DNA from: a virus
Direction: 5' to 3' (one strand)
Virus record (IMG/VR): IMGVR_UViG_3300034104_004365
Coordinates: 1-40,795 of that record
DNA: 40,795 nucleotides
A program made the translations under genes and the position numbers. The notes under the pieces were generated by a model that saw nothing but the letters and a program-made list of their open reading frames with translations, made no database searches and was not told the DNA's origin. This document shows positions 5,280 to 27,767 of the stretch, in pieces (within the stretch, counting starts at the first letter, position 1; each line of letters begins with the position of its first letter).

Positions 5280-5711
5280 TTATGTATTGGCAGTTGGGGT
5301 TGTGTTAGACGAAACAGTGTTAGACACTGGGGTTGGAGTTGGAACTGTATTTGAACCTGGAGGTGCCCAAGGTAAAGCGTCAGCATTCACTTCAACCATT
5401 GGACGAACGATAGCATCGATCTGCTTTTGGATCTGCTCGTCAATGTGAGCTTTGTAACCAGGGTTACCATTTACCACGGCTTGAATCCAACCAAGAACCT
5501 GAGCTTCGGTAAGATCTTCGTATGTGGTGAATTCGTCAGGATCTACCTGATCTGGTTCGAATGGAGTTGCACCGCTGAACGTGCCCGAATTATCGTCTTC
5601 GTCAGTTCCTGTGCATTCCCAATATGTTTGGACGATGATATCATTGAGTTCTGCAGAAGGATCGTCCTGCTTCTTCAGACTTTTAATCTTCCAAGTATAA
5701 GTAAGTGCCAT
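5280..5711 (-). CDS. Hypothetical phage protein with YTWKI start
   Basis: This 143-aa protein begins MALTYTWKIKSLKKQDD and continues with IIVQTYWECTGTDED, GTFSGATPFEPDQVDP and a short helical segment ending in VLGWIQAVV. From memory of the family, short proteins with this YTWKI...VQTYW...FSGATPF layout are widespread next to tail-fibre genes in T4-like phages of marine bacteria, and their function is unknown. The last 30 residues form a Pro/Thr/Ser/Asn-rich tail (SNTVPTPTPVSNTVSSNTT) that is probably disordered. The ATG at 5711 follows the stop of the 1343-aa fibre almost directly, with GAGGAT as ribosome binding site inside the fibre's last codons. Confidence 0.6.
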   Translation of the reverse strand: MALTYTWKIKSLKKQDDPSAELNDIIVQTYWECTGTDEDDNSGTFSGATPFEPDQVDPDEFTTYEDLTEAQVLGWIQAVVNGNPGYKAHIDEQIQKQIDAIVRPMVEVNADALPWAPPGSNTVPTPTPVSNTVSSNTTPTANT

Positions 5712-5713
5712 TT

Positions 5714-8700
5714 TTATTTATCCTCTAGTTTTTGTAGAATGATATTAATTTTATCTTCTAGTGTATTTATATATGCTTGTTGTTCCTTGATTGCCTCGAT
5801 TAAAAGAGGAACAATACGCTCATAGCGAACAGTTAAGTAGTTTTCACCTGACTTCGAAATATTCTTACCAGCTTTATCATCCCACTGCCAATCGAATGGG
5901 GCTGGAGCAACAGCTTGTGGAAGCACAGCTTGTATTTCTTGAGCAAGAACACCAGCATCGTTTGTCTTTAGTTCGGGAGTAAATCCTAGCTCTTCAGCTT
6001 CGTCCACCCAATCAAACGTATAGCCACCAATAGACATTACTTTATCAAGAGCACTATTAATAGGAACAATATTAGTTTTAAGCCGACGGTCAGATGAGTA
6101 AGCTGTAATATTACCAGCTGCTGTAATCTCTCCATTAGAACCATCAAGGAAGATAACTCTACTTCCATTGTATGACCCGCTGGCTATATGAACTCTCGAG
6201 TTTGATGTACCGCCGTTACTACCAGCATAAAACCCATCAGCTCGCACAAGCGTTCCACCAAACCATGTGCCATTAGAAAAGGCGGATGTTTCATTAATTC
6301 GAAGATATGAGTCACTGGTTCCAATTGCATACTTACCATTGCCGTCAATGCGGTTTATGTTGGTTGTACCATTCAGATCTGCATAAAAAGCTGTATCAGT
6401 ATGATTATAAAAAATCGGCGCTCTTACATCACTGGCTGTAGATATGATCGAACCGGTCATATTTAAGTCACCGGAGAATGTGCGTCCTCCGGTGTTTAGG
6501 TATTCTACCCATCCGCTAAAACTATTACCAGAAACGTTTCTCTGGAACAGTCTATTAGAGTTGTCTTCCCAACCCCATGCAATCTGGGTACCCCAGAAAC
6601 TGCTTGCATTTGAGTGGCGCATACTCTCATAAAACCACCATGTACCAGCAGGACCACCAGAAGAAATATCACCGTGAAAGTTATAAGACGACACTGGAGT
6701 ATTTTGAAATCCGGTTGCCCAGTTTCCATTAGTATCTCTTGCACCAATATAAGTGCGGGTAATGTTTAAATTCGATGTACTATTAGGGTCTAAGAAATAC
6801 GCTGTCTCGGCGCTGTCATAATAAATTGTTGCATATAGACCGCCAGCCCCTGGAGAATTATATCCAAAGGATGGAAACTCATAGAGAGTTCCGTATGAAG
6901 TACCATTAGATGCTTGACTACTAATCCACATACGGGGAGTAGCTTGTCTAGATGTGTGTAGGGCACACATATTCAAAACATCGCCGCCTGCGTAACCATT
7001 AATCCATAGTGTATCTGACCAAAAACCAGCCACCGCAGTCATAGCTACTCTAAGACCAAGGCCTTGACCAAAATACGTTTGCGGGTTAAGCTGCTGTCCG
7101 CCATCATAGCGGGTTGTTAAACCACTAGATGTTGCAGCATTGCCAGTAACGTTAATACTCCAAGTGCCATCAGCAACTCCACGAATACTATTTTTTGCAT
7201 GGTCGAGAGAACTCTTTCTCGACCACCCATCACCATTACTGGTAATGAAACTGTTAATTGTCGGATTTTCTGTTTCAGATGTATTAAAGTTAATATGGTT
7301 AGCAAAAATATAACCGTTTCCATCACGACGAACAATGTGGTTTGCATTAACTCCGGTTGAAGCTTCAATAGTGGCTGAGTTTTGTTGATTTGTAATAGTG
7401 GCAGCAGTAATATTCCATGAACCAGATGCAGCTCCTCGAATAGCTGCTGCAACAGCCGCGGGCGTCGTACGAACCAGTTGGTTGGTCGTTGGGTACATTG
7501 ATGTTAATACTGTAGGTGTTTGTTCAGATAATCCTGAACTTAAAATAATTTCACGAGCCGCAATGTCTCCTGCAGCATCTCTATAAGCAATAGTACTTGC
7601 AGTAGGTGCAGTCGCAGGGTTATTAAATCCTGAGATTGAAGCAGCAGTACCGGTAACGTTAATGCCCCAATTTCCAGATGCACCTGTTCCTGTTAAGGTT
7701 GGTGAGTAAGTATTATAGTTAGCAGTTGTTAAAACTATATACCATGCACCCCATGTACTATCAATCCCGCTGCGAATACTTAAACGCGGTGGGCCAGATG
7801 CGTTTACTCCACTTTGATTTCCGAATGCCAATTGATATGAAGAGTCTCCGGTACTTGCAGTCGTTCCTGTCCACGGTGCAAACGTCATAACACCAGCATA
7901 GTTTCCTACACCATTACCAGCGCCTGCTCCGACAAAATCCCAATTTACTGTTCTTGTGAAAGTGTTTGGAAGTCTATCAGAAAGATCTCTTGGACCATCG
8001 TTGAATACTATTCTTAAAGCATTAGTAGCGTTTGTAGCTGTGCCGGCATTTCCTGTAATACTACCAGTAATTGTATTAGTAACAGTTAACCCAAGTAAGT
8101 TAGAAGTACCAGCAAAGTCACCATAAAATTCTGTGTTAGCACTATCATAAAAGATAGGAGCTCTACTAGATATTCGAGATTCACTATATCCAGTACCAGA
8201 AATGAAAAATTCGTTTCTTGCTACATAGTCAGTATATGTTCTTTTATTTCTAAAAGCCCACTGATCTGGAAGAGCATCTTCAATATCGTCAACAAGCTCA
8301 AATACCATACGCACTTGGTTTGTAGCAGGAGATTCTCCGTACAATCTCCAACCATCATTATCACCTACGGCTTGTGACAATAGATACGGTGGTACACTAC
8401 TTACACCATTTCCGTATGTTGTTCCAGTTGGATTTTGTGGAAGTGCTGCTGGACCCGCTGGGCCTTGTGGACCAGTCGGTCCTTGAACAGTCGAACCTGG
8501 AGGTCCTGGAGGACCCATTGGACCAGTTGGACCTTGAACAGTAGAACCAGGAGGACCGGCCGGACCTTGAACTGTAGCACCCGGTGGTCCGGCAGATCCA
8601 GTAAATCCTACCGGACCTTGAGCGCCTTGCGGACCTGTAGGTCCCATTGCACCTGTTGGCCCTTGAACTGTAGCACCTGGTGGTCCTTGAACAGTAGCAC

Positions 8701-9745
8701 CCGGAGGACCTGCTGGACCTTGTGCGCCAGCTGGACCCTGAACTGTAGCACCAGGAGGACCTCCCGGACCCATTGGACCTGTTGGACCTTGAACTGTAGC
8801 ACCCGGTGGTCCTTGAACAGTAATACCAGATGGTCCTTGTGCTCCAACAACACCTTGAGATCCCTGTGGACCCGTGGAACCTTGAGATCCAGTAAATCCA
8901 ATTGCTCCTTGTGGTCCTTGCGCACCAGTAATACCTTGAGAACCAGTAAATCCTGCTCCTTGAGATCCAGTGTATCCTTGGCTACCAGTATATCCAAGAG
9001 GGCCGGCAACTGTAGACGCAGATCCAGTGTAACCTATATCACCCTGTGAACCAGTAAATCCAAGCGAACCGGTGTAACCAATGTCTCCTTGAGAACCGGT
9101 AAAACCTTGACTGCCTGTAAATCCTGTATCACCTTTTGATCCGGTAAAACCGAGCGAACCTGTAAATCCAGTATCACCTCTTGATCCAGTAAATCCAGTA
9201 TCACCACGATCACCTGTTCTTGCAAACGTGATAATGATATCGAGACCATTAGTCAGTGATGTTGCGCCGGCAAGATATGCTACAGGAACCTGAAAGCTTG
9301 CTATGCCATCAACATGAACACCAGTAATAGAAAACTGAGAAAAGTTAGCAGTATTAGCCTTCTCGGTTACTGTGAAGTGACCCTTAATGGCAGATGTAGA
9401 GTCATCAATTGTTTGTAAGAAGTTAATGATTGGAACTAGATTATCGTCTTCATCATGAATGATGAGAGTGGTTGCATTGGTAAAATTGGTATTATTAAAC
9501 TTGAGTTGGCCGGCACCAGGATCTGACAGAGTTGTTGCAGTAGAAAATGTGTAGTCAAACGCTGCACCACCAAAGATACCGTCTTCACCTTTGTCGCCTT
9601 TTGATCCGGTAAATCCAGCACCCGACCCCCAATAGATTCCAGTTCCATTTGAAAGCAATGCTTGGCCTGAAGATCCAATAAAGCCATTGGCTACCAGACT
9701 CTTCAGAGAAACAGGATTTAAATAATGTACTGTATCTTTAGACAT
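5714..9745 (-). CDS. Collagen-like tail fibre with C-terminal S74 chaperone
   Basis: This 1343-aa protein is a modular adhesion fibre. Residues 1-43 carry a connector ([15 protein letters not shown]). A short collagen piece follows at about 44-60, then a compact beta domain at about 61-177. A collagen-like stalk runs from about 178 to 433, and a long Asn/Gly/Thr-rich shaft with three FYD-type repeats (for example [17 protein letters not shown]) from about 434 to 1217. The C-terminus is a peptidase S74 intramolecular chaperone: SDRRLK supplies the family Ser-Lys dyad (about S1218 and K1223). Self-cleavage would release the last 126 residues after trimer folding. The domain ends in [20 protein letters not shown] and a coiled coil. 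The start overlaps the preceding 403-aa gene by eight bases. It is probably a receptor-binding fibre; the receptor is unknown. Confidence 0.9.
8447..9214 (-). repeat. Collagen-like repeat tract of the 1343-aa fibre
   Basis: This tract encodes about 255 residues of Gly-X-Y type sequence. The N-terminal half is built from [15 protein letters not shown] cassettes. The C-terminal half is built from GPPG and eight TVQGP cassettes, each of which breaks the three-residue glycine spacing (G-A-T-V-Q-G). At DNA level, nine- to twenty-base blocks such as the TVQGP and PPG codons recur many times, so the tract is a good substrate for recombination. Confidence 0.9.
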
Positions 9746-10949
9746 TCGACAGAACTACCAATTGAGTATTTGAGAGAGTGCTTGACATATATGCAAATTC
9801 AGAAGGAACTGATGCAAATACGGCATTGGCAATAAGCTTATTTAACACACTTGTAGATGTAATGACTGCATTACCATTACGGCTTGCAATAACTCCATTT
9901 GCATTATAACTGAATGCAATCTTATTTGTTACTTGCTGAGCACCACAATTAATAGTATTTATGAAGATGTTATTTGAACCATCAACAAAGACTCGGTTGT
10001 TTGCAACACTCGAGTTCAAACTCAATATTGTATTTCCAGCAGCGACTGCGTTCCATTTAATATAGATCGAGCCTTCGTCTTGATTGTAAGTATGGAATGG
10101 CACATACTCTTTTACTTCAAAACTTTCAATATAAAGTCTATTGTTAATATCACCGAATCCGGCTGAAACATAAACATTATTTGTAGTTGGCGCAAAGATT
10201 ACAGAGAATGATGATTCTGTTGATGTGGCAATATATCCTCCATAGTCATTATCGCCAAAGTTCGAACCAACCTCAATACGTGAAGGTCCAGTATCTCTAT
10301 CTTCAGGTTGAGCAGAATAGTTTTGATCTGTTGTATAGTATGCATTACCAGTGAGAATATATCTTCTTCCTGGTAATACAGAGATCTCTTCAGTTTGGCA
10401 GTTATCTTTTTGGCCAGACGAGATAATTGTATTAGCTGACAAAATACTACCATTTACAGAGGTCCAATTAGTAAGAAGATTATTCTTTGTTTTGATTGGA
10501 CCCATTACGTCTGTAATAACATAAGCGTTTGCATGCACAAACTGATTGTTGTTTGCTTGACGAATACTGATATTGTTTGCGCCACTAAAGAAGATGCCAA
10601 GACCTTCTGTTGTTTGAATATTTCTACCTGAGAGAGTATTCTCTGAGTAAAGATTTGATGCAATCACTTGACGATCAATTGTAAATGATGATGGTATTAC
10701 AGTCGGAGTAACGTTCACAATACCAACATTATTTGCAATAGATACTGTCAGTTCAAGTGGCGTAACTCCATTTGCTGCAAGAGCAACTTGTTCTTCTGAG
10801 ACAGTGATACCATTATGATTCACGTCCAGCGTAGTATACCAATAAGTATTACCAGCCGTGACGTGAATCTTATAGTTGACAGTCTTCTCAGTCGGAAGAT
10901 CGAAAGTATCGATTGTCTGAGATGATGTGTTGGTTGTGGTAACTATCAT
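9738..10949 (-). CDS. Virion structural protein, probable fibre/baseplate adaptor with beta-sandwich domains
   Basis: This 403-aa protein sits between the two giant fibres and is coupled to both: it starts inside the stop of the 2466-aa gene (ATGA) and its last eight bases contain the start of the 1343-aa gene. It shows no catalytic motif. The N-terminal 100 residues are beta-rich, with [20 protein letters not shown]. The middle contains a stretch with [19 protein letters not shown] and [15 protein letters not shown] that resembles carbohydrate-binding beta-sandwiches. The last 110 residues ([19 protein letters not shown] through [17 protein letters not shown]) look like a LamG/concanavalin-type jelly roll. 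A role as a fibre adaptor or small adhesin is inferred from context and fold-like patterns; no close family is recognised. Confidence 0.55.
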
Positions 10950-13900
10950 TTAGCTTCCAGCTCTTCTACCTTGGCAGTAAGTTCTTTGATTGCTTCAATA
11001 AGTAAAGGAACAAGTCTTGAATAGTCAACTGTCAGATAGTCTTCACCAGACTTAGAAATAATTGTTCCATCATCTTGTGGATCGTAATCGAATGGAGCAA
11101 GAGCAACTGCTTCAGGAAGAACTGCCTTGACCTTCTGAGCTGAAAGACCTACCTGCTGCTTTGTGTTGTTATAGCCAACAGATCTTGCAAGCTCGTTCTC
11201 AACGTAGGTGAAGCCTTCAAGTGACTTGACTTTGGCAAGAGCATTATTAAGATTACCTGTCTTAGTCTTTAGACGTTCATCCGAATAATAAGCTGTAATG
11301 TTACCGGCAGCCGCGGCATCTCTTGAAGCACCGAACACATAGAAGTTATCTTGTGACGCAGAGCCCGACCAGTTCTGTACAACAAGATCGTTACCACTAC
11401 CACGAACAGAAGCATTTGGAGTACTATCAGTAGATGTGTCTGTTGTAAAGGCAACCCTGTTACCATTGCCTGTGATCCAGATTTCTCCATTGGCCCATAT
11501 AACACCCTGTGGAACAGAAGTAGCGCCACCAAGAGCAATAGAGGACATGACAGAAGTACCGGCAAAGTTTCCATAGTATGCGGTGTTATCGTTATCATAA
11601 AACAGCGGTGATCTTGCAGATCCACCAAAGAATGTGTATCCATATGGGAATTGAGTATATCCACCATCCCAATACCAGATCCAACCGCGGCTGTTATCAT
11701 GAACACCCACGTTATCACCCGTTGTCGACATGAATACGTGGCGTGAACCAATGCCCCATCCATACCAACCGTTGCGGCCGGCACCATAAGTAGTAACATT
11801 ACCATATGAATTGCTACCAGACTCTGGCGCCCAGAGTCCCTTGTCGTACGATTGGAAGTATACGCCCGTATTACCTTGTGGTCTAAACCAGTTGTTTGAA
11901 AACACTGCAGCAAACTGAGAATCCCCATTTGGATTTGCATAATAACCGGTGTCATTAGTATCATAGAAGATAGGAGCACGGAAATCGGAAGTTGCAAGTC
12001 CAGTTCCATGCACATGTAGTCTGTGTGAAGCGCTATCGCTACCTACACCAAAATTGCCTTTACTCCAAATGTTGTTTTCGCTATACCAGTTAAGGTACAT
12101 TGCAAATCCATTTTGACAATCCATATGCAGGTTGCCATTTGTTACTGCAACACTTGCTGCAGTGCCCACTCTTCCGTTTCCACCAACATACAGACTTGCG
12201 CCCCAAGTAACGTTGCCGCCAAAGTGTGCGCCGCCACGCACGCGTAATGCATTATCAGCAGTGCTGTTTGGATCGATGTAATAACCTGTATCGTTATTAT
12301 CATAGAATATATTAGCTCGAATATCAGATGTGTTGATATTACTTCCGCCGTTGACAATCAATTGCGCATTAAAGTAGAAGTTTGATCTATCCGTGTAAAT
12401 ATGCGCATGGCCAGAGTTTGCAGGACCAAACTGTATCCAACCGTATGGAGTATTGTGACGATAACCCCAATCTCCACCTGCAAAGTAATAGTCACCGTTG
12501 CCGTAATCCATACTTGCTAATCTGCTGCGCCCATTTGGATTGGCAAAATAAGCTGTATCATTACTATCATAGAAGATAGGAGTACGAAGATCTACGTTGT
12601 TTGTAAATGATGCAGAATTTATGGCTATTTGATTCCATGCATCGTAATCAGTATCCCAACCTGTACGAACCCAAAGGCCGTTTCCATCCGTTCCGTTGTG
12701 TGGAGCGTATAATTGGAACTTAGCTTGTCCGGAACCGGCCATGCTAAGTAGAACACCGTACATATATGCACCTGGTCTATTTGAACCAGAACCGTTTGTT
12801 ACGATTCTGTAGCTGGCTTCTGAACCATCAATATAGCTATTCCAGTCTTCAGATGTTACAGCATCTCTGAAACGAATATAGGTTGTATCGTTTCCGCTGC
12901 CAACTAGCGTTCCAGCACCAGCGTTCAGCGTGACTGTAGCGCTATTAAAGTTAAACTTTAGTACATCCGATGCATCATGATAGATACCACAATGTGAGAA
13001 TCCGGAACGGTGAAGACCAATACCTGCCGTGCCTGAAGTTGCTTGCACCTCAAACTGTAAGTCAGCATAGTAGTTACCCGGCGATGCGACGTTTCTTGTT
13101 ATAATTAAATCATTGAGGTTGGTCGTACTGGCTCCATCAAAGTAATAGCCAGTGTTATCTAAATCATAATAAATTGGTGCGCGCATGCTTTGGTTTGCTT
13201 GAGCATAAGAGCCATCTTTACCAATAGCAAATACTTGTGTTCCTAGATCTTCTGAATCATAAAAACGTATTCCACCATAGTTGGCTTGCGCACCCATACG
13301 GATACCTGTATGCCAGCGCAAATCTAGTTTATTATAGTTTCCGCCATAGTTTTCTAGATTTGTTCCAATGTAATAGTTGGTTTGAGCATCACCATCCGCA
13401 CCACCAAACATCAATCGACTACCGGTTGTAGAATTGTACGCGTTTTGACTGTCATTTCCTTGAATAGTAACATAACCATTTTGATCGATGAAAAGACCAT
13501 CGTTTCGCGTGCCACCTGAGCGAGTATAAAATGTTAATGAGCCTTGAGTCCAGTTGCCGGATGTACCAGCAATTTGTTTTTTAGCAACAATACCACCAAG
13601 GTTAACAGCGTTACCACTACCACTTTGTTCTCTTGAAACAAATGCCATAGCCACTGTAGTCTGATCACCACCATTTTCATTGTATAACGAAAGTGCAGGA
13701 CGTGATCCGTTAATACCGGCAGTAGCATTATCTGCGCGAATCAATAGGCCGGGTGTATGATCTCCTGGGTTTCTATATGTGGCACCTTCCCATTGGAAGT
13801 GAGATTGGCCATTTACTGTTTGGCCACCACCAAGCGACATGTTGACTAAAATAGACGTACTGGCTGGATCTACATAATACCCGGTGTTGTCATTATCATA

Positions 13901-16900
13901 AAAGATAGGTGAACGGAAACTGGCATAAGCGTAACCGATGTTTCCTACTTCTAAGTTAACCGGCGCATATGTATTTCTTAAATCACTTGTAATAGAAACA
14001 AACGTCTCAGTAGTAGTTAGGGTTGTGCTCCAGTTGCCAGCAAGATTCATTACACCATCATAAAACGAGCCATTGTGAATTTTACGAAGACGAATTGTTC
14101 CATAATTCCAGGATGAAGATGTGCCACCAAAGACTACACAGAATCGGTTGTTACTACCATCGTTTTTTACACCAAGACGAATAGACTTGTTCGTGTAACC
14201 AATCACATTACAACCTGTATTATACCACGCATTAGTCCAGTTGTGACCACCGATGATTACAGTTGCAGTGTATTGTCCAGTGTATTCGTAGATATCAAAT
14301 ACCATGTGAACCATGCCATAGTTCGACGTGGTACCAGGCAAGTAAAATATTACTTCGCCTGTAGATGTGCCAGATGCTGACCACTCTATTTCAGGGTGAG
14401 CATAGTTGTTACCCTGTTCGATGGTTCTATTTTGGCCTATGGTAATTTTTTTACCCCACGACGTACCGTCATATCCCCAAAGAGCAGCATCATTATTTTC
14501 GTCTAGCTGCCAGTTCCATGCGCGAGAGTTATCGGCATTAGCAAAATAAATACTGCTTGCAATGCTTGACGATCCTGCAATAAACGACCTGAATCCACTG
14601 CCCGCACGGGTTTCAACAGTAATCATTTGCGAAGTGCTGTTTGGATCAACGTATCGGGCTGTATCGTTGCTATCATAATAGATAGGACTATATACAGCTG
14701 TTTCTACCAGCAACCCATTAGTGGCTACAGACGTAGCAGCTATACCACTACCAATAGTAACTCCGCCATGCACGTGCAACTTTTTATTGGCAACACTAGA
14801 ACCGCCACCGCCGATAGCAAACGTCGACCCGGATCCATTGTACCATATGGTATCGTTACCTGCAACATCAGCCCAATTAATGCCAGCCCACGAAGTTCCA
14901 TTTCCATTTAAGTATAGTTGAACATCGTTTGATGCTATTGCTGAATGAATTCCAGATCTAAGAGGTACATAACCGCCTGCCGTGCCATCCCAAATATTGA
15001 AGTCGCCACTTGAATCCATACCAATTTGCATGCCTACACGGCCACTCCAATGAAAACCAATTCTTGGAGCATTGGAAAGAGATGTGGTAAGACCTCCACC
15101 AAAAGCCGTTTCACGTATCTCTAATGCGTTTTCGTAATAGTTTACTGATGCAGTTTCAGCGGCAATTCCTCCTGGCATATACAAATAATTAATCTTAGAT
15201 GTGGATGCCGGGTCAACATAGTAACCAGTATCATTACTATCATAGAAGATAGGAGCGCGCACGCTTGTATTAACACCAACGTAACCTCCGCTAATACCAG
15301 TAAAAGTAAAGTCAGTAGCCTCAAATGACACTGGTCCATAAGTAGCAGCATCGCGACTGTAAGAAATTACATATCCACGGCCGCCGTTTTCTCCAATTTC
15401 AATAGCTAACCCAGTGGCACTTGCGGATGCATCACCCCACCAACCAGCAGCACGAACTTGCCCAGCTCCATAGATGCCACCGGCAGTAATGAGAGATGTA
15501 CCAGTGTTAGCTGCATCTAAGTAATAAGCCGTGTTATTGCTATCGTAGAAGATAGGAGCACGAACGTCAGTACCGCTTTGGAACGAGTTATTTGTGAAAA
15601 CAATTGTAGGAGCAGTAAAGTCAGAAATATTCGTAGCTGATGGTGATTGATATACAAGTATATTACCACCATGAGCACCATGAGAAGTTACTTCAGGCCA
15701 ACTGGTTTCAATATATGTCTGGTATGTGGTGTAATACATTACTTCAACGTAAACAGAAATGTAATAATAGTCGCCAGATACTTGAGTTGGAGAACTACAT
15801 GTTACACGAGCATGTCTTCCGCGAGGAGACACACCTGCTATAAGATTGCAATCTACGTTATTATAGTCATAAGAAATTGCCCAGCGCTGATAATCACCGC
15901 CGTAATAGTAGTTATTATGAAGTTCTACAAACGTAGTTCCAGCACCGTGCCAATCATTAAAATCAATGTAAAGTCTAGCAATTTCATGTCGCCTAGCTTG
16001 TGTTCCAGATGCACCCAATGCGCCAAGATAATATTTGCGATGTGCACCTATAATAGATGTGCTTGTAGCCTGAATAGAGTTAGCGTTATTAATGCTATAA
16101 CCATTCATGTTCACGTTAGCTTGAGCAGTTCCACCCCACGAACCTGTGAAACCAATTGGTCCTTGAGCGCCAGTAGCTCCTTGAGGTCCCTGCGCACCAG
16201 TAGGACCCTGTGCTCCGGTAGCTCCTTGAGGTCCAGTAGCTCCTTGTGGTCCAGTAGCACCTTGAGGTCCAATTGCGCCCTGTGGACCCTGAGCTCCAGT
16301 TGGTCCAGTATTACCGGCAGATCCAGTAAAGCCAATAGCTCCTTGAGGTCCAGTAGCTCCTTGTGGTCCCTGTGCTCCAGTTGGTCCTTGCACACCTTGA
16401 GGTCCAGTTGGTCCTGGAGTACCTTGTGCCCCCTGCGCGCCAGTTGCTCCTTGAGGTCCAGTAAGACCCTGAGCACCTTGAGCTCCAGTCGGACCTTGAG
16501 GTCCAGTTGCTCCAGCAGGGCCCTGAGCACCTTGAGCGCCAGTAGGACCTTGGGCACCTGTTGCACCAGCAGTTCCTTGAGATCCAGTAAAGCCAATAAC
16601 GCCCTGAGCACCAGTTGCACCAGTAGGACCTTGAGCTCCAGTGGCTCCTTGAGCACCTTGAGCGCCAGTATTACCAGCAGATCCAGTAAAGCCAATTGCT
16701 CCTTGTGCGCCCGTTACACCTTGTGGACCAATTGCGCCTTGCGGGCCAGTAGCACCTTGGGCACCTTGTGGGCCAGTAGGTCCTGTTGGACCAATTGCAC
16801 CCTGTGGACCTTGAGGTCCAGCAACTCCTTGCACACCCTGTGGACCAGTGGCTCCTTGCGGTCCTTGGGCACCTGTTGCACCAACAGAACCTGTATATCC

Positions 16901-18346
16901 TGGAGGACCATACGCATAAAGTGCGGCTACAAAATATGTACCACCTGCGGCACCATTAATATTTTGAGAAGTGGTATTACCAGTAAAGGCAGTCAATTCT
17001 ACGTAATCAGAGGTTCCATTAAAGTACACAATTGTAGAAATTGTCTGGCCATAACCAGACCCAGTTACAATCTGTGCCTGATCGATAGCTAATTGTGTAT
17101 TACCATTTTTTCTTAGCTGAATATTAGTTTGATTATTTGTTACAGCACCAGCGTCCCACCAAACAGAAGCATCAAGACTATAATAACCGGCAATAGTAGG
17201 TTGGAATCTATTAGATGCAAACCAACCATTAGTATCAAAATCATCAACCAATGTAACAACGGTATCTGAACCATTTGTAACTGTCTGAGAAGATCCGTTC
17301 TTAACAGCGCGAACGACATATGAACCGGCTGTTAGCTGTCCGCCGTCTGTACCTTTTGATCCTGTGAAACCAATAGCACCCTGAGCGCCGGTTGCGCCTT
17401 GGACACCTTGTGGTCCGGTTGGACCAGTTACACCTTGAGCACCCTGTGCTCCTGTAGGTCCTTGTGCTCCAACAACACCTTGCGCTCCAGTAGCTCCTTG
17501 AGGACCTGTGGAACCTTGAGGTCCAACAGAACCAGTATATCCAGGATTGTTTGACCAGAATACAGCACTACCGTTAGATACAAGAGCTTGACCAGAAGTA
17601 CCTAAAGATCCGTTTGCATAGATTGAATTTGCATAAAGCGTATTTGCCTGGAAGTCAGCAATCTTAAAGCTAGCATTCGCTGTATCAATGAACGGTGAAG
17701 TATCTGGCTCTGGTAGATAACTATCAAAGACTTTATATCGACCATCTGTCGCATCACGGAAGAAACCTGTGTGATGATATGTTCCGTCGTTGTATCCGGC
17801 AGCAAACCCGATGTCTGGGTTGATATCTGTCTTACCACGAGCAGTACCACCTGATACATATGTAGCCGTATTAGTATTAGCAACAGTAAAGTGAGTGGCA
17901 TTTGCAATTAGAATATTTGTATAGGTTCCATTATAAGAACTTGGGTCTACCGCAGTAACATATACGTCCCAACCGGAAGAATAGTTATTATTGGCAGTAA
18001 ATGTAACAACAGAACCATTACCAGAAACGTTTGTAATAGTAGCAAGAACACCTTGGTTCAAATACAACATGCTGTCAGTAATTGACAGGTTATTACCAGA
18101 AATACTAATAGAAGTACCGGTAACGCTTAGGTTACCACCAATGGTTACGTTGCCACCTACATTCAGCGATGCAAGATTAGCACCAACTTCAAAGGCAACT
18201 GATCCGTTTGAGGAGTATACTTTATGGTCAGTAAGATTAACTGCAAACTCGCCAGCATCAATATAAGATGTGTTACCAGAGTTCGTGGTGTTTGGTGTAC
18301 GACCAGAAATAGTCGTACGTTTGAATTGAATCTTATTGTTTGCCAT
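10946..18346 (-). CDS. Giant collagen-like tail fibre with C1q-like domain and S74 chaperone
   Basis: This 2466-aa protein is the largest in the window. The ATG at 18346 ([12 protein letters not shown]) is chosen because GGGGAG lies six bases upstream; a TTG twelve bases earlier has no better signal. Order: a phage fibre header (1 to about 266), a short collagen stalk (about 267-335), a beta domain resembling the C1q/TNF fold (about 336-478, with [17 protein letters not shown] and [15 protein letters not shown]), and a second collagen stalk of about 85 uninterrupted Gly-X-Y triplets (about 480-737). A shaft follows with nine FYD-type repeats ([17 protein letters not shown]) and embedded beta domains, for example around [14 protein letters not shown]. 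The S74 chaperone at the end has SDERLK (about S2355, K2360), predicting release of a 112-residue C-terminal piece. It ends in an [14 protein letters not shown] coiled coil. Confidence 0.9.
11560..15575 (-). repeat. Nine dispersed FYD-type repeats in the giant fibre shaft
   Basis: Nine copies of a roughly 20-residue motif, consensus R-(A/S)-P-I-F-Y-D-x-(N/D)-(N/D)-T-(G/A)-Y-Y-x-(D/N)-P, lie near 11590, 11955, 12290, 12560, 13160, 13890, 14670, 15235 and 15535. Three more copies are in the 1343-aa fibre, near 6400, 6810 and 8135. The DNA is also conserved: a 15-base block TCATAGAAGATAGGA (plus-strand orientation) recurs in several copies. The repeats separate unrelated beta domains, so they look like shaft joints. 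Confidence 0.85.
16135..16905 (-). repeat. Long collagen-like repeat tract of the giant fibre
   Basis: About 257 residues of regular Gly-X-Y are encoded here, dominated by GAQ, GPQ, GAT and GPT triplets, with the recurring cassette [13 protein letters not shown]. Unlike the other two collagen proteins in the window, this tract contains no TVQGP interruptions. Confidence 0.92.
17342..17545 (-). repeat. Short collagen-like repeat tract before the C1q-like domain
   Basis: About 68 residues of Gly-X-Y ([19 protein letters not shown] and similar) lie between the fibre header and the C1q-like domain. Its first cassette, GYTGSVG, is repeated at the start of the longer tract on the other side of that domain, near 16900. 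Confidence 0.88.
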
Positions 18347-18391
18347 ATGGCTCCCCAAAGCAGATATATATCTTGTAAGCCAACTATTTAG

Positions 18392-18420
18392 TTGACAGTA
18401 TTATTGTTTTTATTTATAAT
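18392..18420 (+). promoter_or_regulatory. Sigma-70 type promoter driving the glycosyltransferase operon
   Basis: On the plus strand, TTGACA (18392-18397) and TATAAT (18415-18420) are separated by exactly 17 bases, a perfect match to the bacterial housekeeping consensus. The expected start of transcription, about seven bases after the -10 box, falls on or next to the first ATG at 18427. The mRNA would therefore be leaderless or nearly so. Its -10 box overlaps the opposing late box at 18411-18418. Confidence 0.75.
18411..18418 (-). promoter_or_regulatory. T4-type late promoter box for the giant fibre gene
   Basis: The minus strand reads TATAAATA, an exact T4 late consensus. It lies about 65-72 bases upstream of the fibre ATG at 18346, in the divergent intergenic region. 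No other candidate element is visible between the two gene starts on this strand. Confidence 0.65.
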
Positions 18421-18426
18421 GGAACT

Positions 18427-20460
18427 ATGATGAAGATTGCTTTTATAGATACACTCGGCCTAACCTATGACGGATCCACTCTTGAAAAGAGAGGATTAGG
18501 AGGATCCGAATCTGCCGTCATTCGCATGGCACAAGAACTTTCTAAAATTGGATTTGATGTAACTATCTATAATGACTGTGAGTCTGACGATTCACTTCCT
18601 GGTTTTTATGATGGTGTACACTATCTTCCTGTATCTAATGCTAATAAGTTATCCAGCCAATATCACGACGTTGTTGTCGTATCTCGCTCTATAAAACCAA
18701 TCTTAGAAGACTGGACAGTCATAACAAGAGCAAAGCACGTCTGTCTCTGGATGCACGATACGTTCTGTGAAGGCGATGATCAGATCGAGTATCTGATTAA
18801 CATCGGCAAACTGCAAGAGATCTTTACACTCTCAGACTGGCATACAGGTTATGTCACTCATTGCGATCATGGATTCCGTCGTAACTATGACGTACTAAAG
18901 AATCATATTTTTTTGACTCGTAACGGCATCGGCAATATGAATCCTGGTTGGATTGATGTCCGTGACAAAGATCCGAATCTCTTTGTGTTCAATGCTTCGG
19001 TTACCAAGGGAATGATTCCACTTGTCAAACAGATCTGGCCAGAGGTAAAACGGCGTATTCCGGATGCGCAGTTGAAAATCATTGGTGGATATTATAAGTT
19101 TCGTGAAGCAGCAGGTCCAGACCAGCAACAAAAAGACTGGACTGATTTGATGATGCAATATGGTCATAGCATTGAGTTTACTGGTGTTATTACTCAAAAA
19201 CAAATTTCAGATATTTTATGTAAAGCTTCTTACATGATTTATCCGGTTGGTTTTCCAGAAACATTTGGTATCTCTACACTTGAAGCGCTGGCTCATAATG
19301 TACCACTTATTACTTGCCAGTTTGGTGCTCTCGAAGAAACGGCAATCGATCTGGCATCATGGAAGATTAAGTATCCTGTTGAACCAAACTGGGCAATGCA
19401 ATGGCTGAACCAGGAACACCAGGTGAATTTATTTGTTGACAAAGTCGTAGAAGCTTATAATACACCGTATCTTCACCAGCAAAAGATGTATGCTTGCAAT
19501 CAAGTCAAGGATATTTGTACTTGGGATACGGTTGCTCTCCAGTGGAAGCAACATCTTTATAAGAAGCTCGGCGAGTACTTGCCTGTTGAAGAGTATCGCA
19601 AAGTCACAAAGATTAACACCAAGGTTCGTAAAGTATTCAACCGTCGATTCTTGAATAAAGAAGAACTTCAGCCAGTTAAGATCTCAGATGAAAAATCTAT
19701 AGCTGTTGTTACACCTGTATATAATGCCGAAGCATACATTGAGAAATGTATTCGATCTGTAGCTGCGCAAGACTATACTGACTATCACATGTATATTATC
19801 GATGATTACTCGTCAGATAACACAGTAAAGATTGCTAAAGAGACTATTAACTCTCTTCCACAATGGCAACGTTGGCACTTTACTGTTTTAGAAAATGAAG
19901 AGAATCTTGGTGCTGTTGCAAATCACTTTGATACGTTTAAGCAATTAGTAACAGAGCAATACATTATGCTTCTTGATGGTGATGATTCACTTGTCAACGA
20001 TCCAACTATCTTCCATATGTACAACAATCTTTATCATGAAGGTGCAGAGTTTACATATGGATCGTGTTGGTCGATGGCCGATAACATCCCATTGATTGCT
20101 CAAGAATATCCGCCCAACATTAAAGCAAACAAATTCTATCGTGCGTATAGGTTCAATTGGAACATGCCATATACGCATCTACGAACATTTAAATCCTCGT
20201 TGATTAAAAACTTAACGAGAGAAGATTTGCAAATTGACGGTAAATGGCCACGAGCAGGTGGTGACACTTCACTGTTTTATTACTTAATTGAACGAGCAGA
20301 TCCGAACAATGTTGTTTGCATAACAGATATTGTAGTCAACTACAATGATTTGAATCCAATTAACGATTATAAAGTGAATGCAGAAGAACAAAATAAGACT
20401 GCAGCAAAAGTATTAAATTCTCCATTTTTTCCAGGACAGATAGATCTTAGACCGCTATGA
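18427..20460 (+). CDS. Bifunctional glycosyltransferase, GT4-like plus GT2-like domains
   Basis: This 677-aa protein appears to be two glycosyltransferases in one chain. The N-terminal half (about 1-385) is a GT-B, GT4-type enzyme: a glycine-rich donor-site loop GLGGSESA (about 24-30) and the retaining-enzyme E-x7-E signature ETFGISTLE (E278, E286). The C-terminal half (about 423-677) is a GT-A, GT2-type enzyme: VVTPVYNAEAYIEKCIRS, IIDDYSSDNT and the metal-binding MLLDGDD (about 517-520). No signal peptide or membrane segment is visible, so it is probably cytosolic. It transfers sugar from a nucleotide-sugar donor; donor and acceptor are unknown. The ATG at 18427 is followed at once by a second ATG; GGA is the only ribosome-binding-like sequence. 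It overlaps the next gene by four bases. Confidence 0.88.
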   Translation: MMKIAFIDTLGLTYDGSTLEKRGLGGSESAVIRMAQELSKIGFDVTIYNDCESDDSLPGFYDGVHYLPVSNANKLSSQYHDVVVVSRSIKPILEDWTVITRAKHVCLWMHDTFCEGDDQIEYLINIGKLQEIFTLSDWHTGYVTHCDHGFRRNYDVLKNHIFLTRNGIGNMNPGWIDVRDKDPNLFVFNASVTKGMIPLVKQIWPEVKRRIPDAQLKIIGGYYKFREAAGPDQQQKDWTDLMMQYGHSIEFTGVITQKQISDILCKASYMIYPVGFPETFGISTLEALAHNVPLITCQFGALEETAIDLASWKIKYPVEPNWAMQWLNQEHQVNLFVDKVVEAYNTPYLHQQKMYACNQVKDICTWDTVALQWKQHLYKKLGEYLPVEEYRKVTKINTKVRKVFNRRFLNKEELQPVKISDEKSIAVVTPVYNAEAYIEKCIRSVAAQDYTDYHMYIIDDYSSDNTVKIAKETINSLPQWQRWHFTVLENEENLGAVANHFDTFKQLVTEQYIMLLDGDDSLVNDPTIFHMYNNLYHEGAEFTYGSCWSMADNIPLIAQEYPPNIKANKFYRAYRFNWNMPYTHLRTFKSSLIKNLTREDLQIDGKWPRAGGDTSLFYYLIERADPNNVVCITDIVVNYNDLNPINDYKVNAEEQNKTAAKVLNSPFFPGQIDLRPL

Positions 20461-21056
20461 AAAAAATCTTAATTGCCATTCCAACTGCACGCTATATTGA
20501 AGCAGATACTTTCAAATCAATTTATGATCTGGAAGTTCCTGAAGGATATGAAACAACCTTTCAATACTTCTATGGATACCGAGTAGATCAGGTTCGTAAT
20601 CTGATTGCAGACTGGGTTGTGCGTGGATTTGATTATTTGTTTTCAGTTGATCATGACATTACATTTCCACCAGATACGCTAAAGAAGCTTCTTGCTCATG
20701 ACAAGGATTTGGTTTCTGGTGTATATCGTCAAAGACTTGAACCACAAATGCTTGAGATCTATGAACCGTTTGGTGGACGTATGTCAACCGAAGATCTCTA
20801 TGCAAAAGACTGGAATTTAGTTGGTATTGGCGGATGCGGATTCGGCTGTGTGCTAGTCAAGAAAGAAGTTCTGGCAGGTGTAGGTTATCCACAATTTGAA
20901 TATTACCCTGCTCTCGATCACAGCAATACTATCAGCGAAGACACTAATTTTTGCAAAAAAGCAATTACCAAAGGCTTTAGACTATGGTGTGACCCATCAA
21001 TTCGATGCGGTCATATTGGTTCTACGACTATGCTTGTAGAGATTCCGAAGATTTAG
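20457..21056 (+). CDS. Small GT-A-fold glycosyltransferase
   Basis: This 199-aa protein begins MKKILIAIPTARYIEADTF, a GT-A nucleotide-binding start. It carries VDHDITFPPDTLKKLL (DHD near residues 65-67), the expected metal and donor-sugar binding triplet, then LVSGVYRQR, GIGGCGFGCVLVKK and SEDTNFCKKAITKGF with a conserved acidic pair, and a final CGHIGST histidine motif. This layout is known from short glycosyltransferases carried by phages and bacteria. No membrane segment is visible. The ATGA overlap with the upstream bifunctional enzyme, and the lack of its own ribosome binding site, indicate translational coupling. Its 3' end overlaps a minus-strand gene by 29 bases. The acceptor (fibre protein, host glycan or DNA base) cannot be told from the sequence. 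Confidence 0.82.
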   Translation: MKKILIAIPTARYIEADTFKSIYDLEVPEGYETTFQYFYGYRVDQVRNLIADWVVRGFDYLFSVDHDITFPPDTLKKLLAHDKDLVSGVYRQRLEPQMLEIYEPFGGRMSTEDLYAKDWNLVGIGGCGFGCVLVKKEVLAGVGYPQFEYYPALDHSNTISEDTNFCKKAITKGFRLWCDPSIRCGHIGSTTMLVEIPKI

Positions 21057-21231
21057 TTTTCTTCTTTAACTTCTCGAGTTCGAGAAGAGCCTGTTGATGT
21101 TCAGTTTGAAGGATGGCGTAGTTCTTTTCGAGCAACGCCATCCTTGTTTCATGTAAAACGTTCTTACTTACAGCATCGTGTAAATTCGTTGTCAGACGAT
21201 TGATATACTCATTAACAAATTCAGCTTCCAT
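21028..21231 (-). CDS. Small coiled-coil protein, unknown function
   Basis: This 67-aa protein begins MEAEFVNEYINRLTTNLHD and is predicted to be almost entirely helical, with a C-terminal heptad-like segment (ALLEKNYAILQTEHQQALLELEKLKKK). The ATG at 21231 is chosen because a GGAGG lies about 14 bases upstream. Two earlier in-frame ATGs (21252 and 21264) lie within the end of the 498-aa gene and lack ribosome binding sites. It is convergent with the small glycosyltransferase and overlaps it by 29 bases. Small coiled-coil proteins next to fibre genes may be assembly factors, but no function is recognised. Confidence 0.6.
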   Translation of the reverse strand: MEAEFVNEYINRLTTNLHDAVSKNVLHETRMALLEKNYAILQTEHQQALLELEKLKKKTKSSESLQA

Positions 21232-21235
21232 GATA

Positions 21236-22732
21236 TTAGAACGTGCCTCCATCAAGTGTACCATAAACTACGGTTGAGCCGTTTGATTGTAGCACGTATC
21301 CGTCTGTACCAACTGCAAGGTTGGTCATGCCATTTGTTGAGTTACCAACAAGGATTCCACCGGATGTAAGAGTGGATAGTTTAATAGTGTTAGCAGAAAT
21401 AGATACAGGAATAGTACTATTAGCAGTGATGCTAAAGGTGTTACCAAGTGATGTTAGCGCACCAGAATAAAGATAAGTTTGAAGCGCTGCAAGACCGTAA
21501 CCAACACCACCTACCTCAACAGTTGTTGTTGGTTCAGATTCAAGACCGGTAAAGAGCTTATAGACACCGTCTGATGCGTCACGAATAAGACCAGTATAAC
21601 GTGTACCGCCGTTTGTGAACATGCCATAGAAACCAACGTCAACGGTATCTGCGCCGTTGCCGTTAGCAACCTTAATCATAGGATCTTCAATAACAAGGTT
21701 GTTTGTATCAATTGTGGTAAGTGTACCAGAAACTGTAAGGTTACCAGAAAGAACAAGATCTGAAATTGATAGCGCATTGTTAACATGAACACCAGTCGAG
21801 TTCACAGTTAGTGTAGAACCGGTTGGAACGCTAATTGAGTCAGAAGCAACACTAATGCTGTTTGAACCAACTACGTTTAGTGTTAGATCACCTGTTGTAC
21901 CACCACCAGTAAGACCGTCGCCTGCAACAACCGATGTAATATCGGCTAGTGTATTTGCCCAGTAAATTGATGTTCCATTTGAGTGAAGTACTTGACCTGC
22001 AGCACCTACACCACCATTCGCAGAAAATGCTACACCCGATGCAAGTGTTACTTGACTACCATTGGCTGCAAACTGACCACCATTAACAAGTAATTGGTTA
22101 TTTGCATTTACAATGCCGGTAAAAAGCACATTAGCAGAAGTAGATAAACTGCTACTATTTGCAAAAAAGCTTGTACCAATAGAAAAGACTGCAGAGTTAA
22201 CAGTGTTTGTTGATAATGATGTACCAGTTAATGATGAAAATACAGTATCATTACCAACGGCAAGATCACTTGTATGGATTTTACCACCAACACCTAAACC
22301 ACCAGTGATTACAACTGCACCGGTTGTTGTGTTTGAGCTGGATGTACCAATAGAGAATGTATGTGTATTTGTCCATGCATATGATGCATTGACGTTAATT
22401 GAAACAGCACCCTGTGGAAGCCAGTAAGTATTACCACCGGCATCAACCGACATAAGATATCCAGCACCAGGACTTGAAGTACCATTTGCTGTAATCGATC
22501 TTACTGTTAAGTTAGCAGTCTTAACTGCATCAATCTCACCCGAACCATTTGCTACAAGAGCTTGGTTAGCAGTGAGTACACCAGGATTAAATTTACCTGC
22601 AATGGTGAACGACGCGCCATTTGACCCGATAAACAGGTGGTCGCCGTTTGCAGTAAAAGCCAGTTCACCATTAGCTAATGACGGAGGAGTGGCCGTAGTT
22701 ATAGATCTTTTGATCTGAATTAGGTTAGCCAT
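21236..22732 (-). CDS. Fibre-like structural protein with phage fibre header, no chaperone
   Basis: This 498-aa protein opens MANLIQIKRSITTATPPSL and LANGELAFTANGDHLFIGS, the N-terminal header seen in many marine phage fibres and paralogous to the start of the 2466-aa fibre. The middle is Ser/Thr/Asn/Gly-rich beta repeat sequence with a connector GQVLHSNGTSIYWANT. Near residues 340-420 it shares with the giant fibre the module GNLTVSGTLTTIDTNNLVI followed by GLIRDASDGVYKLFTGLESEP. It lacks collagen and an S74 domain and ends GTLDGGTF. The ATG is preceded by GAGGAA. It is probably a short fibre or the base segment of a longer one. Confidence 0.7.
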   Translation of the reverse strand: MANLIQIKRSITTATPPSLANGELAFTANGDHLFIGSNGASFTIAGKFNPGVLTANQALVANGSGEIDAVKTANLTVRSITANGTSSPGAGYLMSVDAGGNTYWLPQGAVSINVNASYAWTNTHTFSIGTSSSNTTTGAVVITGGLGVGGKIHTSDLAVGNDTVFSSLTGTSLSTNTVNSAVFSIGTSFFANSSSLSTSANVLFTGIVNANNQLLVNGGQFAANGSQVTLASGVAFSANGGVGAAGQVLHSNGTSIYWANTLADITSVVAGDGLTGGGTTGDLTLNVVGSNSISVASDSISVPTGSTLTVNSTGVHVNNALSISDLVLSGNLTVSGTLTTIDTNNLVIEDPMIKVANGNGADTVDVGFYGMFTNGGTRYTGLIRDASDGVYKLFTGLESEPTTTVEVGGVGYGLAALQTYLYSGALTSLGNTFSITANSTIPVSISANTIKLSTLTSGGILVGNSTNGMTNLAVGTDGYVLQSNGSTVVYGTLDGGTF

Positions 22733-23352: not shown

Positions 23353-23928
23353 CTAACTTTGAAAGTTCGGATTGCCAGTAGTTGTTGCATATAGGCTAAA
23401 TTCATTCACAGCAACTGGTGCCTGAGTTATTTTATGACGAATTGTTGCACTAAGAGTTGTAAAAACTGTTGTAACAAACTGATTGTCTGCAAAAACTCTC
23501 CAAACACGGGTAGTAGCAAGATCTAACCACGTATCAAGCGGATCGCTTGTACCTTCTAATGGATCACCGCTTAATTTTGTTACCAAAATTTCGTATTGAT
23601 TGGAATTGGCAGGGTTTACAATCCACGGATATTCAGTCTGGCTTGGTCCATAGTCATCGAAAATCACATTTCCGCTGGAATATATGACCCAAGCGCATTC
23701 AGCACCGAAGCTGAAATTAACTGTTTGAGCCTGATCATTGCTTATCTGAACTCGGTCTACAAAACCCTTCCATGTACTTCCATTCCAAACTTTGGCATTA
23801 GTTGCATATATCCACTCTGATCCATTCCAGACGCGAAACCATGCTCCATAATCGTTGTCAAATAAACCATCAGTTGGAGAGTTATTAACTATCGCCCACG
23901 ATGATCCGTTCCAATAATGCATTGCCAT
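23353..23928 (-). CDS. Structural protein with three WNGS-type repeats
   Basis: This 191-aa protein has three short repeats in its first 55 residues: HYWNGSSWAIV, RVWNGSEWIYA and KVWNGSTWKGF. The W-N-G-S-x-W pattern is known from phage tail-tip and fibre proteins, where it may form a small beta unit, possibly sugar-binding. The rest is a beta-type domain with aromatic-rich stretches (FSFGAECAWVIYSSGNVIF, TTRVWRVFADNQF). It starts inside the stop of the collagen-like 435-aa gene (TAATG), so the two are translationally coupled and may form one fibre: the 435-aa stalk has only a short cap after its collagen tract. A fibre-tip role is inferred. Confidence 0.55.
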   Translation of the reverse strand: MAMHYWNGSSWAIVNNSPTDGLFDNDYGAWFRVWNGSEWIYATNAKVWNGSTWKGFVDRVQISNDQAQTVNFSFGAECAWVIYSSGNVIFDDYGPSQTEYPWIVNPANSNQYEILVTKLSGDPLEGTSDPLDTWLDLATTRVWRVFADNQFVTTVFTTLSATIRHKITQAPVAVNEFSLYATTTGNPNFQS

Positions 23929-25235
23929 TAGATTTGAATCCAGATATCACCAGTTGCTGATGCTGATGGCTGTGGACCTTGCACAAACACCTGTCCACCA
24001 CCAGTATAACCTGATGTTACGTGGCGTAGAATTGGAGCTGCTGCCGATGCTGCACTTCCTGGAGGTCCTGGAGGACCAGCTGGTCCTTGAACTGTAGCAC
24101 CTGGAGGACCTTGTACAGTAGCACCTGGAGGACCTGCTGGACCCTGGACTGTGGCACCTGGAGGACCTGGAGGTCCAGCTGGACCTTGAACAGTAGAACC
24201 TGGAGGACCTGGAGGTCCAGCTGGACCTTGAACAGTAGAACCTGGAGGACCTTGAACTGTAGCACCTGGAGGACCTTGAACAGTAGCGCCTGGAGGACCT
24301 GGAGGACCTTGAACAGTAGAACCCGGAGGACCTGGAGGTCCAGCTGGACCTTGAACAGTAGAACCCGGAGGCCCTTGAACAGTAGCGCCTGGAGGACCTT
24401 GTACAGTAGCACCTGGAGGTCCCATAGGTCCGGTTGGTCCCATTGGTCCGGTAGATCCGACAAATCCTACAGGACCCTGAACTGTAACACCAGGAGGACC
24501 TTGAACAGTAACACCAGATGGTCCCTGTGCTCCAGTGATACCTTGCGATCCTGTAAATCCTACTGGACCTTGAACTGTCGCACCAGCTGGTCCTTGAACA
24601 GTAGCGCCAGCCGCTCCTTGTGCTCCTTGAGCTCCAGTGATACCCTGTGATCCGGTAAAGCCAATTGGTCCCTGTGCACCAACCGGTCCTTGAGATCCAA
24701 CTGGGCCTTGAGCACCAGTAGCACCCTGCGGTCCAATACCACTTATCCATGATACGTTAGTACCATCTGTTCTTAAGAAGAACCCAGTTGCACTACCTTG
24801 AGCTGGAAGAAGATTGTTTATAGCAGCGGCACGCGTTGATGCATTTGTACCACCTTGACCAATATTTAGAATACCGTTAGAGATAGAAGAAGCGTTTACA
24901 ATCAAGCCCATAGCATTCGCAATAATACCATCGCCGGCACGAATATTAATATTCGTTCCATTAGCAGCAATAATAGAATTCGAAAGACTTAGGTTGTCTG
25001 CAGATACCGTGAACGTTCTTGTAGTGTTACCAAGCAGAACACCGTTGGCAGTTGGAATCAGTTCGCCGCTGAGCGAAGTATTACTAAATGTAAGATTGCC
25101 GGTGACTGTAAGATCGCCATTAACTCCAAGAGTCTGGCGAACTTGCATATGCTGTGTAACTTCAACATTTGCAGTAAATGTAGAATCACCGTTTACTAAT
25201 AATCCATTATCTACTTTAAAATTAGTGTTTGCCAT
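23928..25235 (-). CDS. Collagen-like fibre protein without chaperone domain
   Basis: This 435-aa protein has an N-terminal beta-type segment (residues 1 to about 165; [39 protein letters not shown]) ending in a connector, [16 protein letters not shown] collagen-like stalk of about 228 residues follows, with 15 TVQGP cassettes that interrupt the Gly-X-Y register. The cap is only about 37 residues ([19 protein letters not shown] to GDIWIQI). There is no S74 chaperone, unlike the two larger collagen proteins. It is coupled to the downstream 191-aa gene and starts eight bases after the 771-aa gene. It is probably a short fibre whose trimerisation depends on the cap or on a separate partner. Confidence 0.85.
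24056..24738 (-). repeat. Collagen-like repeat tract with 15 TVQGP cassettes
   Basis: This tract encodes [22 protein letters not shown] units, most of them sharing near-identical 24-base DNA blocks. The TVQGP cassette is the same as that in the 1343-aa fibre (8 copies) and absent from the giant fibre, which points to exchange between these two genes. Confidence 0.9.
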
Positions 25236-27558: not shown

Positions 27559-27767
27559 TAATTATTCCTGTGTATTAACTGCAATAAAAGAGACTTGATT
27601 TCAGTAAGTTCATTCTCTACTTCAGCCATTCTCTTGCACAAACTGTTGTTTCTTTTGCTTGCTTCTCTTGCAGCTAAGAATTTCTTATATTCTTCTTCAT
27701 TGTTATTTATGATAGCGCCAGAGTCGGTATCCTTTACATATCCTTGATGATTTGTATCTACAAGCAT
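27558..27767 (-). CDS. Small coiled-coil protein, unknown function
   Basis: This 69-aa protein begins MLVDTNHQGYVKDTDSGAII with NNNEEEYKKFLAAREASKR and ends in a predicted coiled coil (MAEVENELTEIKSLLLQLI). The N-terminal phrase with YVKDTDSGAIIN and NEEEYKKF is familiar from small, uncharacterised proteins in T4-like marine phages. It is coupled by one-base overlaps (TAATG) to both the 702-aa gene before it and the 771-aa gene after it, so it probably acts with these structural proteins as a scaffold, chaperone or minor virion component. Function not known. Confidence 0.65.
   Translation of the reverse strand: MLVDTNHQGYVKDTDSGAIINNNEEEYKKFLAAREASKRNNSLCKRMAEVENELTEIKSLLLQLIHRNN

Follow-up and report, generated by a model that had tools for sequence, protein, structure and literature searches.

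Antisense glycosyltransferase genes that probably act on the collagen-like fibre stalks of aquatic phages

Introduction

When a phage carries glycosyltransferase genes among the genes of its own fibres, it may be asked whether the enzymes act on the host surface, on the phage DNA or on the fibres themselves. The question is raised by a T4-like myovirus, IMG/VR record IMGVR_UViG_3300034104_004365, of which all 40,795 nucleotides (40.8 kb) were analysed and are referred to here as the window. Two overlapping genes on its plus strand (the cassette) encode a probably soluble set of three glycosyltransferase domains, and it is quite probable that this set glycosylates the collagen-like stalks of the phage's own fibres, most likely by building a short glycan on serine or threonine of an [F/Y]-T-G-S sequon. 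Because phages of this kind, from lakes and the sea, possess both their own enzymes and a matching motif that other phage collagens lack, they probably sugar-coat their own stalks.

The glycosyltransferases

An earlier note on this DNA, made without database searches, had read three glycosyltransferase domains in the two genes, correctly so, because GT4 and GT2 domains are detected in the first product and the model of the second is of GT-A type. The N-terminal domain of the 677-residue protein belongs to GT4 (PF13692, E 1.8e-11; PF00534 also matched) and its C-terminal domain to GT2 (PF00535, E 5.9e-23); its AlphaFold2 (AF2) model, with a predicted local distance difference test score (pLDDT) of 77.9, matches GT4 enzymes such as MshA, and chondroitin polymerase, in the PDB. 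The 199-residue protein lies below the Pfam cut-off (PF13506, E 0.009), and its AF2 model (pLDDT 89.9) has a GT-A fold, of which the best PDB match by Foldseek is STIV A197 (E 2e-11, template modelling score 0.65-0.68), with further matches to the human collagen enzymes LH3 and COLGALT1, the mimivirus collagen glucosyltransferase R699 and polypeptide GalNAc transferases. The EX7E motif of the GT4 domain (PETFGISTLE; E277-x7-E285) and the DGDD (a DxD-type metal site) and GGD motifs of the GT2 domain are invariant in 15 divergent relatives, as are the DxD (D65, D67) and SED motifs of the 199-residue protein in the relatives aligned; with catalytic motifs so conserved, the enzymes look active. 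The genes overlap by 4 bases, and a second ATG at 18430 is a possible start of the first. The 199-residue protein of the window is without the FkbM methyltransferase domain that most relatives have; the window phage either lost this methyltransferase or never had one.

A sequon linked to the cassette

The earlier note had described the stalks as rich in GXT and GXS triplets and had suggested GXT as the general acceptor. Threonine does occupy the Y position in 37% of the 180 collagen triplets of the window, but this is not specific to enzyme-bearing viruses: its frequency at Y is 0.35 with the cassette and 0.25 without it (p=0.13), and none of 32 records with GPTGPTG collagens encodes the enzyme, which speaks against GXT as the acceptor. 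GPT and GAT, considered as linked features in the same comparison, did not differ significantly either.

The feature that is linked to the cassette is a longer one. In the longer collagen tracts of the window, G[FY]TGS occurs 19 times, as against a mean of 0.96 and a maximum of 5 in shuffled sequences (5000 permutations). A density above 0.03 per triplet is found in 40 of 43 dereplicated cassette loci and in 2 of 12 others, one of which (L187) has the cassette elsewhere on its contig; the second (L233) is a fragment of 31 kb. Among T4-like collagen loci, the motif is present in 30 of 31 with the cassette and in 1 of 11 without it (p=8e-8). It is also present in all 78 collagen genes (not dereplicated) that lie at least three genes from the cassette in T4-like loci.

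The composition of the motif points to its probable acceptor. In cassette-bearing viruses 97.7% of 2602 aromatic residues at X (97.6% in jumbo phages) have serine at the X of the following triplet, compared with 1 of 72 in cassette-less T4-like collagens and 6 of 105 in GPT collagens; conversely, 92% of the serines at X come after an aromatic residue at the previous X. The intervening residue is threonine in 71%, whereas other residues are followed by threonine in 19%. Threonine as the sole acceptor was rejected, being replaced in 29% of cases after an aromatic residue while the serine is kept. Serine is thus the near-invariant hydroxyl and, from this pattern of conservation, the likeliest acceptor, with threonine second. 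Searches of the openly available literature, which left out most subscription papers, found the motif reported for no phage; to that extent, both the sequon and its association with a family of phage enzymes seem to be new.

The link was also recovered from the opposite direction, by a DNA pattern search that started from the motif alone and from which records of at least 25 kb were kept (n=47). The GT4-GT2 protein is encoded in 32 of these 47 records, whereas control scans found it in none of the 32 records with GPTGPTG collagens and none of 33 with GDKGDTG collagens; when the controls are limited to at least 15 collagen triplets the count is 0 of 45 (p=1e-13 against the motif-first records). 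The suggestion of the earlier note that the phage decorates its own stalks is now well supported by comparison, in particular by a motif that predicts the enzyme in an independent scan, once GXT as the general acceptor is dropped from it. What computation supports are the enzyme folds with their intact catalytic motifs, the sequon, and the association of this sequon with the enzymes.

Relatives and distribution

Well over 100 relatives of the cassette were retrieved from IMG/VR. In T4-like phages it lies antisense to the structural genes and usually diverges from a collagen fibre gene: collagen is encoded in the locus in 23 of 26 dereplicated divergent loci and in the adjacent gene in 19 of 26, and in a count of 26 cassette-bearing records, 24 encode collagen somewhere. 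A neighbouring gene for a 109-residue protein served as an anchor for retrieving loci of the same arrangement, some with the cassette and some without; collagen was found in 5 of 5 of the former and 11 of 45 of the latter (p=0.002). The presence of collagen was rejected as the link in itself; it is not sufficient, because those 11 cassette-less T4-like loci encode it too. One T4-like lineage (L150-L172) has the same gene order and no cassette, its fibre gene abutting a counterpart of the window gene at 21236-22732; its collagens are without the motif, though a single gene may have up to 276 triplets.

An FkbM methyltransferase, as a fused or neighbouring domain, accompanies the cassette in 41 of 53 distinct relatives, and an extra GT2 domain in 8 of the 53, three of which also have a GT25 domain. 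A second FkbM-type methyltransferase is fused ahead of the GT-A domain, or adjoins it, in L031, L034, L098 and L038; from its position, the modules of the cassette have been shuffled between relatives.

By their large terminase subunit (TerL), the viruses with both cassette and motif form two clear groups, one T4-like (43-61% identity within the group) and one of jumbo phages (61-83% within), with G044 standing apart. Identity between the groups is about 28-40%, and the jumbo TerL proteins are 31-39% identical to that of the window. The glycosyltransferase is 53-64% identical to that of the window across the aligned panel, which suggests transfer of the cassette. In the jumbo phages the collagen genes are at least 15 kb from the cassette, yet they bear the motif. 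The single full-length match in 84,980 species genomes of bacteria and archaea was a contig of a metagenome-assembled genome, and this contig is itself T4-like phage DNA with motif-bearing collagens.

The isolates with the best collagen matches (Synechococcus phage S-CAM7 and Roseobacter phage CRP-114) are without the motif, as are uncultured megaphages, one stray occurrence excepted; since the best isolate collagens lack it, no cultured test case was found. In S-CAM7 (17545-22448), a GT25-family gene directly precedes a collagen tail fibre gene without [FY]TGS, a pair that might be a second, unrelated stalk-modifying system.

A broader view, held with less confidence but still favoured, is that the cassette represents a virus-only line of multi-domain enzymes (GT4-GT2, GT-A, often FkbM, in some cases GT25 and a further GT2) whose [F/Y]-T-G-S sequon is hard-wired into the collagen stalks, and which in T4-like and jumbo aquatic phages would place a methyl-capped O-glycan on every such repeat. 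On this view it would be the first glycosylation of collagen directed by a sequon to be described in phages.

Alternative substrates and contrary evidence

The main rival explanation is that the enzymes modify a surface glycan of the host (lipopolysaccharide core, O-antigen or capsule) and thereby block superinfection, in a region that gathers surface-related genes. The pelagimyophage study (PMC7029224) reads the glycosyltransferases of the corresponding VrlC-to-neck-gene cluster in this way, as O-chain modifiers, and the GT4/GT2 profile matches are mostly polysaccharide enzymes. This alternative, already raised in the earlier note, is weakened by the absence of membrane proteins: no transmembrane segment is predicted in the cassette or any other protein of the window (by the Kyte-Doolittle scale, no stretch of 19 residues exceeds 1.6), neither a gtrA flippase nor a membrane-spanning gtrB or gtrC for Gtr-type O-antigen conversion is found among them, and the GtrB-like PHROG match of the 677-residue protein spans only its GT2 core. 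Nor does host modification explain why the collagens found with the enzymes are all of the [FY]xGS type, and the enzyme family is essentially absent from the species genomes mentioned above. It is considered unlikely.

Less probable again, to the point of being a slim chance, is that fibre and cassette merely travel together as one recombination module and that the motif is structural. Their adjacency in T4-like phages, counted above, and the low power of the phylogenetic pair test would fit such co-travel; against it, the motif persists in fibres far from the cassette, jumbo phages distant in TerL keep the pairing across at least 15 kb, and sister T4-like collagens in the same locus are without both motif and cassette. 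Glycosylation of hypermodified phage DNA against restriction, after the manner of the T4 glucosyltransferases, is the least credible explanation and very improbable, for although it is a common role of phage glycosyltransferases, the cassette is present in T4-like phages and some large cassette-bearing records have strong matches to the thymidylate synthase family, that family (PF00303, thymidylate synthase/dCMP hydroxymethylase) is absent from half of the large records (6 of 12, possibly incomplete, including those of 364, 250 and 202 kb), the collagen motif is left unexplained, and the GT-A model best matches protein and collagen glycosyltransferases.

Several observations weigh against glycosylation of the stalks. 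The enzyme is missing from 15 of the 47 motif-bearing records; at least three of these are fragments, identical at 99.9-100% to viruses that have the cassette, another (L298) breaks the strict form of the rule (44%), and 11 are unexplained, a profile of the third domain having rescued none of the enzyme-less records except for a partial match in G063. The test of independent pairs on the g109 tree yielded two supported pairs, both agreeing, and is underpowered since too few branches are supported. The candidate sigma-70 promoter of the cassette suggests early or constitutive expression, which would also suit host modification, and a GT-A fold does not by itself define the substrate. Full-length homologues are found in no phage isolate, and the case rests on sequence comparison and models.

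Proposed mechanism

If the stalks are the substrate, the enzymes would be made from their own host-type promoter, independently of the late genes for structural proteins. Glycosylation would be cytoplasmic and would precede or accompany the assembly of the fibre: one domain would use a nucleotide sugar to place a first sugar on the hydroxyl of serine, or else of threonine, in an [F/Y]-T-G-S unit of the repeats, and the remaining two domains would extend it. The FkbM methyltransferase that most relatives have, as a fusion with the third domain or beside it, would then cap the glycan by O-methylation, a step that the window phage would omit. The likely benefit would be stalks that are stiffer, more stable or shielded. 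We infer that the modification is a glycan, as we do the residue that carries it, the order of the domains, the identity of the sugars and the benefit. Within the window, the three collagen-like fibres of Table 1 are proposed as the acceptors.

Comparison with known systems

The closest parallel is Clostridioides difficile SgtA, which glycosylates the collagen-like BclA3 of the neighbouring gene on threonine and also accepts serine (PMC7157674). A soluble GT-A enzyme, a gene beside a collagen-like gene, an O-linked sugar on repeat hydroxyls and a capped glycan are features of that system that are predicted here. Gene adjacency of this type is present in the window and in the divergent loci counted above, and is not found in jumbo phages. 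SgtA and BclA3 differ in that the substrate is a bacterial spore protein with GPT repeats and a threonine acceptor and the enzyme has one initiating glycosyltransferase domain, whereas in the phages the proposed substrates are fibres whose sequon includes an aromatic residue, and the enzymes are a GT4-GT2 protein and a GT-A protein, in many cases with an FkbM methyltransferase; a GPT acceptor finds no counterpart, the motif linked to the phage enzyme being [FY]TGS.

The mimivirus proteins L230 and R699 are collagen glycosyltransferases whose acceptor is hydroxylysine and which depend on a lysyl hydroxylase (PMC9546862). Both are likewise virus-encoded and glycosylate collagens of viral type, and R699 is among the best structural matches of the 199-residue enzyme together with LH3 and COLGALT1. 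In contrast to the substrates of these enzymes, the window collagens have lysine at only about 1% of Y positions, and no lysyl hydroxylase or 2-oxoglutarate oxygenase was found in Pfam scans of the fibre-region genes of the window; the phage system is not hydroxylysine glycosylation. STIV A197 (PDB 2C0N) is likewise a small stand-alone viral GT-A enzyme, but it belongs to an archaeal virus, is 18% identical to the 199-residue protein and has no associated collagen.

In mycobacteriophage Che8, glycans on virion structural proteins have been linked to phage-encoded glycosyltransferases (Freeman et al. 2023, as cited in PMC12619734 and PMC11256854), the targets described there being the C-termini of capsid and tail-tube proteins and not collagen stalks. 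The pelagimyophage glycosyltransferases occupy the same region of T4-like aquatic phages, from VrlC to gp14, but are reported to be mostly of GT8 and are read as O-chain modifiers, with no collagen sequon reported in the available portion of PMC7029224.

If stalk glycosylation is confirmed, receptor fibres would be decorated in a large class of environmental phages, and some glycosyltransferase genes filed under O-antigen or DNA modification would act on something else. Thanks to the sequon, one peptide is enough to test the claim and the system can be recognised in any metagenome; the sequon could also allow cell-free glycosylation of recombinant bacterial collagen. Glycosylation may also explain the folding stability of proline-poor collagen stalks.

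Gene setting and divergent promoters

Both enzyme genes run opposite to their surroundings, as first described: all other large genes of the window are on the minus strand, including those for TerL (closest to that of Methylophilales phage Melnitz and of cyanophages, 56%), TerS, gp3, gp14, gp13, VrlC and the baseplate wedge, and the enzyme genes lie antisense within the fibre cluster. VrlC (27767-29875) and gp13 (3684-4427) bound a region that matches the "host recognition cluster" of pelagimyophages (PMC7029224). The placement of the cassette between collagen-like fibre genes holds for the cluster as a whole but not for the direct right neighbour (21236-22732), which has no collagen triplets in tracts of at least 8, compared with 110 in such tracts in the left divergent neighbour; the nearest collagen gene to the right is the third fibre of Table 1.

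Table 1. Coordinates of the cassette, the collagen-like fibre genes and the divergent promoters in the window
Feature	Coordinates	Strand	Evidence	G[FY]TGS motifs and remarks
GT4+GT2 glycosyltransferase, 677 residues	18427..20460	+	Pfam, conserved motifs, AF2 model	
GT-A-fold glycosyltransferase, 199 residues	20457..21056	+	PHROG 1574, AF2 model, Foldseek	
Collagen-like fibre, C-terminal S74 chaperone domain	10946..18358	-	Collagen E 3e-44, Peptidase_S74	7 at 16139-17542; likely true start ATG 18346
Second collagen-like fibre, S74 domain	5714..9745	-	Collagen E 4.5e-19, S74	14 at 8594-9616
Third collagen-like fibre	23928..25235	-	Collagen E 1.7e-12	2, at 24546-24560 and 24648-24662
Candidate sigma-70 promoter of the enzyme genes	18392..18420	+	TTGACA-17-TATAAT, 12 of 12	
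T4-type late promoter of the divergent fibre gene, TATAAATA	18410..18417	-	Perfect match	

The candidate sigma-70 promoter and the late promoter overlap on opposite strands. Strong sigma-70-like sites are also found upstream of the enzyme gene in same-strand relatives; because the other site in the window that matches at 12 of 12 positions lies within a gene, the match is not proof of a promoter. A sigma-70 site for the enzymes and a late promoter for the fibre suggest that the enzymes are expressed separately from the fibre gene, and probably earlier. Besides these overlapping promoters, the 68-bp divergent intergenic region (feature at 18362-18420) contains two palindromes, AGATATATATCT and TCAACTATTTAGTTGA, that persist in relatives, a change in one arm being matched in the other, and are possibly a 5′ hairpin or an operator.

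Two small genes on the minus strand were also noted. An open reading frame of 78 residues (21028-21264), conserved at 73-98% in many relatives, overlaps the GT-A gene and the fibre gene at 21236-22732, each at its 3′ end. The other (5280-5711), which adjoins the second collagen-like fibre gene, encodes a small DUF7936 protein (PF25590, E 1e-18).
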